A DNA stretch of 64,000 nt from Ianthella basta (taxonomy: Eukaryota > Porifera > Demospongiae > Verongiida > Ianthellidae), in the NCBI GenBank assembly GCA_964019415.1, contig OZ025870.1, positions 7,682,915-7,746,914 on the forward strand. The letters run 5' to 3'. The notes beneath the pieces are model-generated. The model had not been told where the DNA came from, ran no database searches, and saw only the letters and a list, made by a program, of their open reading frames with translations. How positions within the stretch are numbered: the stretch's first letter is position 1; each line of letters begins with the position of its first letter. Both the position numbers and the translations under genes were made by a program. This document shows positions 8,551 through 23,776 of this stretch, in pieces.

Positions 8551-11500
8551 ATGGCCGCTGGGCGGGATGAGGCAGCTCTGCGGAAGATTTTCTCGAAATT
8601 AGTGGAAGGAGTCAAGGCGATCGACATCATCGACGAATTATATGAGAGCGATCTATTGAGTAATGAAGAATTCGAAGGCATTCTGGACATCTGTTCGCAG
8701 TCTCCATCCAAGGATGACGTGAAAGCAGTGAATAGGCGTGTTCTAATGGCCATTCGCCGTCGTCCTCCTGGATTCGCCGCAAAGTTGGCGACCATCTTGC
8801 GAAAAAAGTACAATTCTTTGGCAGAAACTCTGGAGAAGGGTGAGTAACATTGTGTGCATTTCTATTTCGGGTTGGGTCACCTATTTCCAGTGCCTTGACT
8901 GGCTCCCGTTGCTGTTCTTTCCTCCTGTAGCTCTCATGGAGGTGGACAATTCCCCTCAGAACGACCCAGCTCCACCTCCAAGTCTTGCTGCAGACGGGCA
9001 ACCCTCCAGCAGTAGAACAATGGCAGGTAGGGAGAGTTTAAGGAGAGTTAATTATGTAGCTAGCACTAGCAACTGTATGATGAATTTGGTGTCCATTACT
9101 GAGTCAACAGAAATGGCAATCAAAGCTGTGCACTTAAAGGGATTGCTAGAGGTGATGATAGCTAGAATTCCATTGGAATTCTAGCTATCGTACGTAATCA
9201 TATGTACATAATACATATGTACGTAATCTATTCTGATGCAGAATAGATTACGTACATATGTATAATTGTTTGGAATGAGAATCACGCTCAGGATCTAACT
9301 TCTGATAGCATAAATCCTGATGGCATAAATCCTGATGGCTACTGATGTAATAGTTCAACTTATTAGAGTTTTTTTCAAGACTTTAAGGCCATTCTTCATG
9401 GTGCGATCTATCTGATGTTCTATTGGTACTCTTTTTATCTACATCTGCTCTGACTAGCAAGTATGACTATAATGACTGTATGCAAAATTCTTGTGTGGCT
9501 TCAGCCATTCTGTTTAAGGATGCAAAGCAGTTTTATGGATAAATGCCATTATTTATCCACATTTTCTAAGAAGCTGTGTACTTAGTAGCCTAGGGGTGCA
9601 CAGTGTGATGTATTGGACTATATGGGGTTTGCTAGATATACATGTGTAGGATGATTGCTGTGTGCAGAGTCAGTGTGTGAAGGGAATTGTAAGTGCAATT
9701 ACAGAAGGCATCACGATGGAGGGACTGTGGTCCAGAGACTGATAGGTGAACGTGTCTTATTGAAGATCCTATCTGGACTGTCACTGTCTGTGGACCTTTG
9801 GAGTGGCATAGGGCTGGAAAGAAAGGTGGCCCTAAAGGTTATGCTGTTCAAAGGTCCTGACAGCAATGACCCAGATCCTGTTTTTAACTAGACATGTTTA
9901 CCAATCAGTCTCTGGACCGTATACCCTCCATCGGGATGCTTTAATTGCTGTGATTAAGCTTGCGATTCCTTTCACACTATACAGGTGCTTAGTTTCAATA
10001 CTTGATATAGCACTCATGTAAATTCGCTCATGTTCCATCATGTACTATGACTCATGTCATCAATCACGTATTACACTCCCATTAATTAAGTTTGTTATTG
10101 TAATTATGCTGCATCTACTTATTTCTCCCTTGTATCTCCAGGTCCAATGGATGAATGGAAGGTTAATGCCTTGGTAGCATTGAAAGGGGAGCTCAAGAGC
10201 AGAGTCAAAATGACTAAACTTATTGACATGTTGGAGATACCTGCAGGAGGCTTCTTGGCCAAAGTTGAGGCAAACAGCGTGAGAACTAAGGTTGGAGATG
10301 CTAGTAAAATGGACGAGATCATCGAGATACTACAAGGAAAGGGAAACAAAGAGTTCACTACATTCTGCCAAATGCTGCGACAGTGCAGTTACGAGGTTTG
10401 GGCACAAGAGCTGGAGTTGACTGCAGAAAGGTTCAAGACTAGCAAAGGTATTTTACCTTCTGTAGTGTTTAGGAGCAATTGCGGACTTCCACTATCAGAC
10501 ATCACGGTAGTGCTTTCTATGTAGGGATGGAGGTGGTTGTTTGTATGCTGTAATACAAACGAAACGTAGCGCTATTACTGGTTAGGGTTGAAAACCATCA
10601 AAAAATCCTACCCATGAGAAAGCGTTGGTTGTATATCACTCAGGGCTAATCTTACTTCCAAGCGAAAGTGCGTGTTCTGCAGTAAACGACTTTGACTTAA
10701 GCATTTTCGTCGTCTTCTTCGCATGAACCATAGCAAGTAGGGAAAGGCATTTACCCCAGAACAGGCTGTTACACAGTGGAGCATTAACCATTGTCCCTAC
10801 ATTCAAGGATGTGGGACTGTAAGGTGCGACATTCTTGCATGTAGGGACCTTGGTTAATGGTCCACTGAGTAACAGCTTTTACTTGTTTCTGTACTTTCTT
10901 GTGCCATCCCTACATTCTTACCATTTTTGTGGAAACTTTTTATTTTATAATTTAATGACTTAATGTTGTGGATACAAAACAGGCCTGGAGGAAGCACTTT
11001 AAAGGTGGTCAGGCCAATTGCAAGTCAGAACAATATTTAACCTAGATGGGCACTTGCACAGGCCAGGAAGTACCTTAGCTATAGAAAAGCATGGACAGAC
11101 CCTAAAATCTGGTCAGGCCATGGCCTGGGCAGCCTGGGCTGTTCTGCCAGGCATGTGAAGAATAGAGTTTCTATTTTGCTATGTATAGATTGCTATTCAT
11201 TGCAAAGTGCACTGTTACAAGTAGTACAATCATTGCACTACTCGTAACAGTGCACTTATTGTATGTTTGCACCTTTCTCTCATGCAGCCCACTCTGGCAC
11301 TGATTCTGCTCCACCTCAAGGAGGGGCACAAGCAGACACCTCTACAAGTGCGGCAAAAACCTCCAATGAAGGGAACATGGCATCACTGCAACACAGCCGT
11401 GCTGTACCCCATCCACTTTCCCCAACAATGATTAATGTATATTGGCCAGAGTTTGAAACACTCCAAGATGAATTTTCCATCATTGTCAGTGAGCTGTTGG

Positions 11501-21376: not shown

Positions 21377-23776
21377 ATGGCGCAACCAAGTGGCGGGTGG
21401 CTAGGAGGCGCTTTCCTTCTTGTTAACAGCTATGTGGGAAACCCAAACCTACGCAGCCTGACAAAACTCGATGACGCAGCTAGGGACTTTTGGAATACGT
21501 TTTCCGCTCTCCGATTGTACCCTATGATCTACTACAACCAGCCGAGGGATGTTGCCATGGGCCGCCTAGAAGAATTCGTAAAGGAACTTACTACAGTAGG
21601 TACCGTAAAGTACGCTGTTTTCTTCTTCATTGGCCACGGTGGAGACGGAGATACTCTGGTGATGCAGAATGGACGTAAAGTGACGACTAAGGAAATTGAT
21701 GACATCTTAGCTCGCCTCCCACGCACGATGACCACGATAATCTTTATCGATGCCTGCCGAGGACCAGGTACACAGGGTGGTTACAGTCCAGAGTGCTCTA
21801 ACTGCATCATGGGCCGCTCAACACTGCCACACGCCATAGCCTGGACCGGACAAACCTATGGTACGTACTGATGTTGATGCCTGATTTGCCTGTATAGCTA
21901 GCTAGCTGCACGTACGTAGCTGCTCTACAACCTAACTTCGCCAAATCCCAACCTGTAATTTCCTTGGAAATGATACTAATGAGCAAAGCAGAAAAGACAC
22001 CTTTCACTGTATAATTATTTCCATACAGGTATATACTCACATACCCTAATGCATGAACTGGATGCCACTGATGGTGCTGTGGAGAAGGCACTTGATAATG
22101 TGGAGAAGAAATTCCGGATTCAACATATACCACAGTATACCCAGTGCATAAAAAACGGGATTCAAAGCCTTTCTTTGGAAACAGATATTAAGGATGCTGG
22201 AGGCAGGCTGAAACCCCTAGTATTTCCTAAGTGGATGGAGGAGTTACTGGCACATATGAGATCTGACCGAAAAAGTAGGTATGCATTTATACATTTCTTA
22301 GTTAATGCAATGAATCTTGTGGTTAATGTGCACAACTGTCTTCATCCCCATAACAGGCATTATTGATTCTAGTCAGGCCCTTGAGGAAGGTTACTACACT
22401 GATAGGACTATGTATCCCAGCACTGGTGAGGACAGTATACATCTCTATGCCTGTATGTGTGAGCCATGCTGTGTTACTGGTTAGGTATTAGTGAACAGCA
22501 AATAGGAGTGAGTTGGCCAAAGAAAGGATAAACACTTTCAATAAAAACGGCCAATACTAATTACGCAACATTTAATAAGAAATATTAAAATTTAAGTCAC
22601 TTTCATTTCTGCCTGCTTGTGTAAACATGTGTGTGTGTGTGTGTGTGTGTGTGTGCTTGCGTGCTGTTGTGTGTGTGTGTGTGCCTGTGCTGTACACCCT
22701 TTGTGTATGTGTGTCCATAGTGCATGCCCACCTGCTGTGTGTGGTTCATTACCATCTGTAGTTTTTTGTTCTTTGGATGTAGGTTTGGCAGCTTCTCCCA
22801 GTGATCACCACAGAACGTTGCATTCCGATGCTGTGGGGATCATTTCATGCGATCTGGATGTTATCTGTTCCAAGAAATCCCCACAAGATGCCATCAAGAG
22901 CCTATTTTTCAATGCATACTCTGCTCTCATTCGAATTCTGAAGACTTGTTTTTGCTGTATCAAGGCTGTAGCATTAGATGCTGTTCATATGCAACAGGTG
23001 AATGCCACAGAAGATGAAGTGAAACAAGCACAGGACCTTCGTGCTCTCTTCCAATGCCTGGAGATAGACAAAAAGTGGAATTACCTCCACTTCTTAGATA
23101 ATGCTATCACAAACCTCCCACCTGAAGCATCTAAGGAGAGAGAGGCTGCTCAGGTGGTCTTGGGCCACTACAAATCTCATCTAAGGGCCTACATAAAAGC
23201 TACCTCTATCAAGGAGGGGAAGAGTGTGCTTGGGCATCCTCCACGTAAGCGAGGTAGAGAAGAAAGATTGGTTGTCACGGAGATTACGGTTGACAAGGAA
23301 ATGGAAGATTACACTTGCAAAGATTGCCTTGATCTATGGATACGTTTTCTAGTTGAGGCTCTGGATATTCCTGAAGACAACATTCAGTTCTGTAATGCCA
23401 GACACAGTAACAGTACCACACTTGTCTTCCTGGTGCCACAGACCTTTGCTGAAGAGATCAAAGAGAAGCTATCCAACCCTGCTGTAATATGGATCATTAA
23501 GCAGTTGGGCATCCTTCGAGTACATGTTGTAGGGATTTTCAACAATGACCTAAGAGAGGCGCTACCAGTTATACCAACTGACAGTGTACGTGAAGGACTG
23601 CAGTCTGGAGTGGACTTTGTGCTACTGACTAAGGTGTGGGTGTGTGCATGCACATATATATGTGTGAGTGAGCATGCACGTGTGTGTGTCTGTGCATGTG
23701 TGAATATCGTGTGTATTGTTGGCCAATTTTAAAACAGAATTCCACTTACTACAATTGCATCAAGCACTTGCCTTGA
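21377..23776 (+). CDS. Caspase-like cysteine protease with C-terminal death-fold and shared module
   Basis: Predicted cysteine endopeptidase (clan CD, C14-like) acting in the cytosol. Exons: 21377-21860, 22029-22274, 22357-22425, 22783-23633, 23738-23776. Phases agree and give 562 residues. Residues 1-160 are a p20-like domain with catalytic His87 (FFIGHGGDGD, codon 21635-21637) and Cys127 (IIFIDACRG, codon 21755-21757). The site reads DACRG where classical animal caspases have QACRG. Exon 2 resembles a small-subunit region (GIYSHTLMHELD). Exon 4 encodes a death-fold (KWNYLHFLDNAI) and then the module seen in the upstream gene (TLVFLVPQTFAEE). There is no N-terminal prodomain. The last exon adds 12 residues. 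Another frame through it would extend the protein, so the C terminus is less sure. Confidence 0.8.

Follow-up and report, generated by a model that had tools for sequence, protein, structure and literature searches.

Gene content of the locus

The window analysed here is a stretch of 64,000 nucleotides from the verongiid demosponge Ianthella basta (assembly GCA_964019415.1, contig OZ025870.1, in the following C3, positions 7682915-7746914). It contains two neighbouring genes on the forward strand, here gene A and gene B, which an initial annotation had put forward as a candidate sensor/effector pair. Gene A extends from an ATG at 8551 to a stop at 19211 and comprises 10 predicted exons with GT-AG introns, which join into a single open frame of 1038 residues. 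Gene B (ATG 21377, stop 23776) is predicted to have 5 exons and encodes 562 residues. The limits first assigned to the region coincide exactly with the start codon of gene A and the stop codon of gene B, and the distance of about 2.2 kb given for the two genes agrees with the 2,165 bp measured between the gene A stop and the gene B ATG.

The domain order is CARD-CARD-hub-coil-kelch in gene A, with two CARDs ahead of the hub, and caspase-like-hub in gene B, the hub being a two-part region with a helical half followed by an alpha/beta module of approximately 90 residues. Pfam models support the flanking domains. CARD (PF00619) is found in two stretches of gene A with 36.5 bits (cut-off 23.9), and the kelch propeller PF24681 reaches 63.6 bits (cut-off 50), with Kelch_6 and Kelch_1 likewise above their cut-offs. 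Peptidase_C14 (PF00656) scores 40.1 bits in gene B (cut-off 21.4), where the motifs GHG and DACRG can be read from the sequence. The annotation of kelch in one protein and of a caspase-like domain in the other is therefore upheld by scores above the cut-off for each. The hub stretch does not receive any Pfam name in a scan of both proteins. Sequence searches against PDB yield nothing useful, as the best E is 0.47 for residues 1-516 of gene A, 1 for the caspase part of gene B and 1.2 for the hub profile.

Homology of the two hubs

BLASTP detects no similarity between the hubs of gene A and gene B (E 4.0). When 28 A-type sequences and 49 B-type sequences are condensed into profiles, however, hhalign aligns the two with E 1.5e-7 (94% probability, 170 columns, 16% identity). 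In a control run, E is 8.4e-8 one way and 2.2e-7 the other, compared to 0.16 and 0.13 with reversed profiles. The halves match separately, helical with helical at E 4.7e-4 and module with module at E 2.6e-5, whereas the crossed combinations remain at 0.07 and 0.28; both halves are therefore homologous and their order is kept. At the level of sequence profiles the two hubs are related by remote homology, and the claim that both proteins share the same two-part region stands.

The shared element W-[DN]-Y-L, which had been highlighted in both death folds, is present in gene A and gene B themselves but does not qualify as a shared mark. It occurs in 27 of the 28 A-type sequences and in just one of the 49 B-type sequences, gene B being the sole carrier, and W is the only invariant column in the 27-row hub alignment. 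This likeness is overstated and partly due to chance. An origin of A and B by recent tandem duplication was rejected in view of the 16% identity of the hubs and the location of their clans in separate arrays.

Family size, arrays and selection

The home genome (209 Mb, 96 contigs) was searched with the hub of gene A (67 matches), the hub of gene B (111 matches) and a diverged A-type member (79 matches). Merging results in 78 A-type and 110 B-type places. The former derive from the 67 and 79 rows, with two rows of E > 0.001 excluded and the two halves of a broken copy merged; the latter derive from the 111 rows, with one fragment of an already listed locus excluded. A genome_contigs scan with the gene A hub yielded no relative, none of its 29 pattern matches being confirmed. 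In the home genome, C3:11.60-12.22 Mb (reverse strand) holds most of the close A-type genes and C3:7.95-8.90 Mb (forward strand) most of the close B-type genes. The hubs are under purifying selection. The median ratio of nonsynonymous to synonymous substitution rates (dN/dS) is 0.32 in A-type hubs (27 sequences, 349 pairs) and 0.30 in B-type hubs (24 sequences, 184 pairs), and no pair reaches a value of 1 in either set.

Heads and tails across the family

The genome searches for CARD, kelch and DEATH cover the best 150 candidates scored, and a further kelch search 121 scored of 210 candidates, hence the resulting counts are lower bounds. The 121 kelch rows consist of 55 of gene A type (at least 60% identity, two at 52-53%) and 66 others. 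Positions relative to A- and B-type places were evaluated with 131 of 156 kelch matches, among the matches listed, and 47 of 54 caspase rows (second stretches of one domain excluded in both cases), with all 110 CARD rows, and with 5 of 150 DEATH rows chosen by eye.

A kelch exon of gene A type follows within 15 kb downstream in at least 21 of the 28 close A members, the window gene counted. Downstream of the 25 close B members or of 50 other A-type places, no kelch is present among the matches listed. With a query taken from the B paralogue L070, an ankyrin-start exon is located downstream in 23 of the 25 close B members and in none of the 28 close A members. Under a null model of common shifts on C3, the observed A-kelch association (21/25, null mean 0.77) is reached by 1 of 1000 shifts, while B-ankyrin (19/20, mean 0.38) and A-CARD (28/57, mean 0.81) are reached by none of 1000.

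A Pfam CARD is located within 6 kb upstream of at least 34 of the 78 A-type places. Of the close A-type loci L009-L035, 27 with the window copy, 23 contain an exon that matches the second CARD exon of gene A, and the exon of the first CARD aligns with 59% to L006 and 61% to L008, both among the eight best PF00619 loci of the genome. At C3:1070653-1072166 (+), three tandem CARD matches, each within an open frame of 297 residues, stand directly before an A-type hub. None of the 25 close B members has a Pfam CARD within 6 kb among the best 150 candidates scored. Exons similar to the second CARD of gene A are found ahead of the B-type hubs of L040 (in L071), L041, L049 and L065; the one CARD-like exon of B-type heads that was scanned scores 14.4 of 23.9 bits, under the Pfam cut-off. 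Pfam DEATH heads occur at three B-type places, and L042, L059, L060 and L062 display a DEATH-like frame by eye, one of which was scanned and has no Pfam hit.

Caspase matches within 8 kb are confined to one of the 110 B-type places, gene B itself, and one of the 78 A-type places, on contig C5. There, CARD, A-type hub and caspase lie within 2.3 kb (C5:9912789-9915032, +), the caspase apparently last, in reverse of the gene B order. A caspase at C3:5.706 Mb has a further A-type hub downstream, at a distance of 8.3 kb. By position, the hub is flanked on one side by exchangeable heads (CARD, DEATH and the caspase-like domain of gene B) and on the other by exchangeable tails (kelch in the close clan A, ankyrin in the close clan B).

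Identity of the module and the helical half

The module had been described as unnamed. This is correct as far as Pfam names are concerned, but it probably belongs to a known superfamily, as a divergent TRADD-N (RRM-like) domain. According to Kaur et al. 2021 (PMC8195603), the sponge Amphimedon possesses 357 TRADD-N proteins with this kind of build, and the sponge members were reached there via transitive searches. The NCOA6 clade is marked there by a Ser (occasionally Cys) at the beta2-beta3 turn and a tiny residue, usually Gly, before it. In the 27 rows of our alignment, the column that low-confidence models place at the turn contains Ser (23) or Cys (4) throughout, preceded by G (10), N (8), D (3), R (2), K (2), H (1) or Q (1). 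Model residues 136-230 of the gene A hub are RRM/ferredoxin-like, with low confidence. The only match to PF13820 (NCOA6_TRADD-N) in the genome falls on a family member, L094, with 16.2 of 22.5 bits (E 0.0096). L094 was chosen because it is that match, and the chance of a match falling on the family is 3e-4 by length alone; as coding DNA attracts more profile hits than random DNA, the true chance is higher. Head-hub-tail position and lineage-specific expansion are found for gene A and many paralogues, with a caspase-like head in gene B.

Against this assignment, the cut-off of PF13820 is not reached, and the model is not listed for any of the 27 members, for which reason the module is named TRADD-N-like here. 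The top places of PF09034 (TRADD_N) lie away from the hub family. Foldseek searches with two low-confidence models return no match at E<=0.001, and the VIA list indicates the fold class only, TRADD being absent among the 50 matches listed, which rules nothing out. Another RRM/ferredoxin-like domain, unrelated to TRADD-N, would agree with the missed Pfam cut-offs, with the PF09034 places elsewhere and with a fold class that is very common. We regard this alternative as unlikely in view of the turn Ser/Cys in 27 of 27 rows, the location of the sole PF13820 match inside the hub family and an architecture that fits the published sponge expansion.

The helical half forms four to five helices in low-confidence models, compared to the six of a Death-like bundle. 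Its description as a death fold is not demonstrated: it shows no similarity to the second-CARD profile of the family (E 0.13 and 0.21) and no Pfam hit above cut-off. The same two values leave an identity as CARD without profile support, and this candidate was rejected; the helical half is possibly Death-like. On contig C4, eight weak PF09034 matches (E 0.24-1.9) occur at 0.68-1.06 Mb (-), outside the hub family places.

Origin of gene B

The nearest relatives of the gene B caspase, 58-60% identical, are five members at C3:5.75-5.89 Mb and one on C10; the remaining caspase-like members of the array at C3:5.70-5.89 Mb are 42-45% identical. Gene B probably originated when its head was swapped for a member of this subfamily.

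Alternatively, gene B could represent two genes, a caspase-like gene and a separate or decayed B-type hub gene that has lost its own head and tail exons. Such a composition would explain why gene B alone among 25 close B members is preceded by a caspase match and why it is one of two without an ankyrin start downstream, no ankyrin-start match being found after it before 7.95 Mb or in the window. It is also in agreement with a predicted last exon that lacks paralogue support and with a lone remnant of a paralogue exon further downstream. We nevertheless consider two genes unlikely. The linker exon 3 measures 69 bp, compared to 66 bp in its L093 counterpart, and both possess an identical phase-1 donor; as this donor is kept, the caspase is expected to be spliced onwards. 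Beyond exon 3, the first exon identified is that of the hub, which follows after 357 bp and in phase. The hub is still constrained (median dN/dS 0.28 against 23 paralogues). For exons 2 and 3, dN/dS against L093 is about 0.79 (0.46/0.58), which points to weak constraint on that part.

The exon-like remnant is located at 25757-25825 (+) and matches the exon between hub and ankyrin exons in the B paralogues L069 and L070. Further downstream, at 27288-30546 (+), retrotransposon pieces with endonuclease and reverse transcriptase frames (PF03372, PF00078) are present. Kaur et al. 2021 (PMC8195603) tie retrotransposons to architecture shuffling in the DEDD2 clade.

Dedicated pair or modular family

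We consider it likely that gene A and gene B are members of one large modular family around a two-part hub, composed of a helical, possibly Death-like half and a most probably TRADD-N-like module. The hub is reused at well over 100 places with interchangeable heads and tails, which gives the two genes the look of members of a modular defence and cell-death family and not of a dedicated pair. Among the 78 A-type and 110 B-type places, nine A/B combinations lie within 30 kb, all on the same strand: the window pair, whose hubs start 11.4 kb apart, one at 5.4 kb and seven at 14.8-29.5 kb. The eight combinations besides the window pair involve distant members. The dedicated neighbouring sensor/effector pair of the initial annotation is not supported, as the close paralogues show no second A-B adjacency and the clans are mainly found in separate arrays. 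A conserved neighbourhood, checked within the home genome, is absent for close paralogues. The neighbourhood of gene A and gene B is probably incidental to array evolution.

It is very improbable, in our estimation, that the kelch sensor of gene A recruits the gene B caspase through hub-hub contact in the manner of an inflammasome or apoptosome. Same-strand genes in close proximity with a hub common by remote homology would be compatible with such a recruitment, and the rarity of caspase heads (1/110 B-type places) makes an exceptional pair conceivable. The hubs, however, are just 16% identical, the clans differ in tails and arrays, and the pairing is not repeated in close paralogues. A and B may possibly act together, with no backing beyond proximity and remote homology.

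Proposed working and comparison with known systems

From the architecture and from the model of TRADD-N domains as bridges between sensors and effectors (Kaur et al. 2021, PMC8195603), we infer how the hub might work. It would serve as a bridge between sensor tails and recruiting or proteolytic heads. The tail would bind a target; the hub would keep head and tail in a resting arrangement until target binding rearranges it, whereupon the head is released. The two freed CARDs of gene A could then recruit other CARD proteins, caspases included. In gene B, the putative protease is mounted on the hub itself, so that hub assembly might gather protease copies with no CARD step. A more far-reaching version, to which we assign a low probability, assumes that a protease has replaced the recruiting head in gene B and that this caspase would be activated by TRADD-N-type hub assembly without CARD. 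Hub-hub recognition between clans would then act as a second assembly code beside death folds, used by gene A and many hub genes.

Death-like plus TRADD-N expansions in marine invertebrates are of a known kind. As described in PMC8195603, the Amphimedon NCOA6-clade expansion resembles the Ianthella family in its Death-like domains, its RRM-like module with turn Ser (a fold predicted with low confidence in Ianthella), its variable tail and its very large, lineage-specific extent; ankyrin tails and caspase effector domains are also named there. In Ianthella, by contrast, the caspase-like domain of gene B is N-terminal, at the CARD/DEATH position, clan A ends in kelch, and the PF13820 cut-off is missed. 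The DED-TRADD-N beta-propeller proteins of Branchiostoma and Crassostrea, from the same source, share a Death-like domain, TRADD-N (probable in gene A) and a C-terminal propeller with gene A; the propeller is WD40 where its type is named, whereas gene A possesses kelch, two CARDs and a coiled coil. The main text of PMC8195603 contains no occurrence of 'kelch', and its sections and passages covered here mention neither a CARD-CARD-hub-kelch clan nor an N-terminal caspase as head. A search for TRADD-N together with kelch gave no match in the literature collection used.

NLR inflammasomes and the apoptosome are similar to gene A in their possible working, with a CARD as recruiting head and a repeat tail that perhaps binds ligands. 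They differ in NACHT/NB-ARC, for which neither the gene A nor the gene B protein has a Pfam match at E up to 10. The CARD-caspases L002 and L003 on contig C38 of the home genome share Peptidase C14 with His and Cys motifs with gene B; they combine QACRG with a neighbouring CARD, whereas gene B carries DACRG and a divergent C-terminal part and lacks a CARD.

Instead of a single pair of genes, the finding now concerns a system that can be counted, with one hub, two clans that each show a clear preference for a tail, and an apparent exchange of heads. Natural swaps within one genome make the TRADD-N bridging idea, a mixing of immune parts in animals without adaptive immunity, testable. They also carry a warning, namely that adjacent genes with common domains in such arrays need not interact.

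Exon structure and further features of the window

The exons of both gene models are given in Table 1. Exons like the coiled-coil exons of gene A are present in many A-type loci.

Table 1. Predicted exons of gene A and gene B and approximate limits of their hubs (window coordinates).
Feature	Position	Strand	Basis
Gene A exon 1 with the initial ATG, first CARD	8551-8839	+	open frame, GT donor, phase 1
Gene A exon 2, linker rich in proline and serine	8931-9026	+	AG/GT, phase 1 at both ends
Gene A exon 3, second CARD	10142-10447	+	highest-scoring Pfam stretch for CARD (residues 167-221)
Gene A exon 4, linker and hub	11288-12144	+	homologous to gene B hub, hhalign E 8.4e-8
Gene A hub, helical region	~11428-11817	+	
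Gene A hub, alpha/beta module	~11833-12117	+	
Gene A coiled-coil exons	12281-12346, 12589-12723, 13088-13222, 15255-15389	+	all phase 0, AG/GT sites
Gene A linker exon ahead of kelch exon, weakest of the model	16218-16316	+	AG/GT and phase 0 only
Gene A final exon with kelch propeller and stop codon	18213-19211	+	PF24681 63.6 bits, Kelch_6, Kelch_1
Gene B exon 1, caspase-like p20 (motifs GHG, DACRG)	21377-21860	+	PF00656 40.1 bits
Gene B exon 2, C-terminal part of caspase-like domain	22029-22274	+	equal length (246 bp) in L093
Gene B exon 3, 22-residue linker with phase-1 donor at end	22357-22425	+	homologous exon in L093
Gene B exon 4, hub	22783-23633	+	hhalign to gene A hub; 24 other close matches
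Gene B hub, helical region	~22824-23258	+	
Gene B hub, alpha/beta module	~23268-23540	+	
Gene B predicted last exon with stop, uncertain	23738-23776	+	AG acceptor and open phase only; without paralogue support

A tandem duplication of approximately 480 bp (12339-12816 and 12819-13315) doubles the 45-residue coiled-coil exon of gene A, and the resulting exons 12589-12723 and 13088-13222 encode identical residues. An intron of gene A harbours a GIY-YIG endonuclease-like frame on the reverse strand (13715-14497, PF01541 E 4.4e-5), presumably of the type known from Penelope-like elements. A long TG dinucleotide run (approximately 16375-16646) lies inside the predicted intron preceding the kelch exon. 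Elsewhere in the window, immunoglobulin-domain frames occupy positions 55301-57858 on the reverse strand, the first of them with an I-set match of E 4.9e-14.

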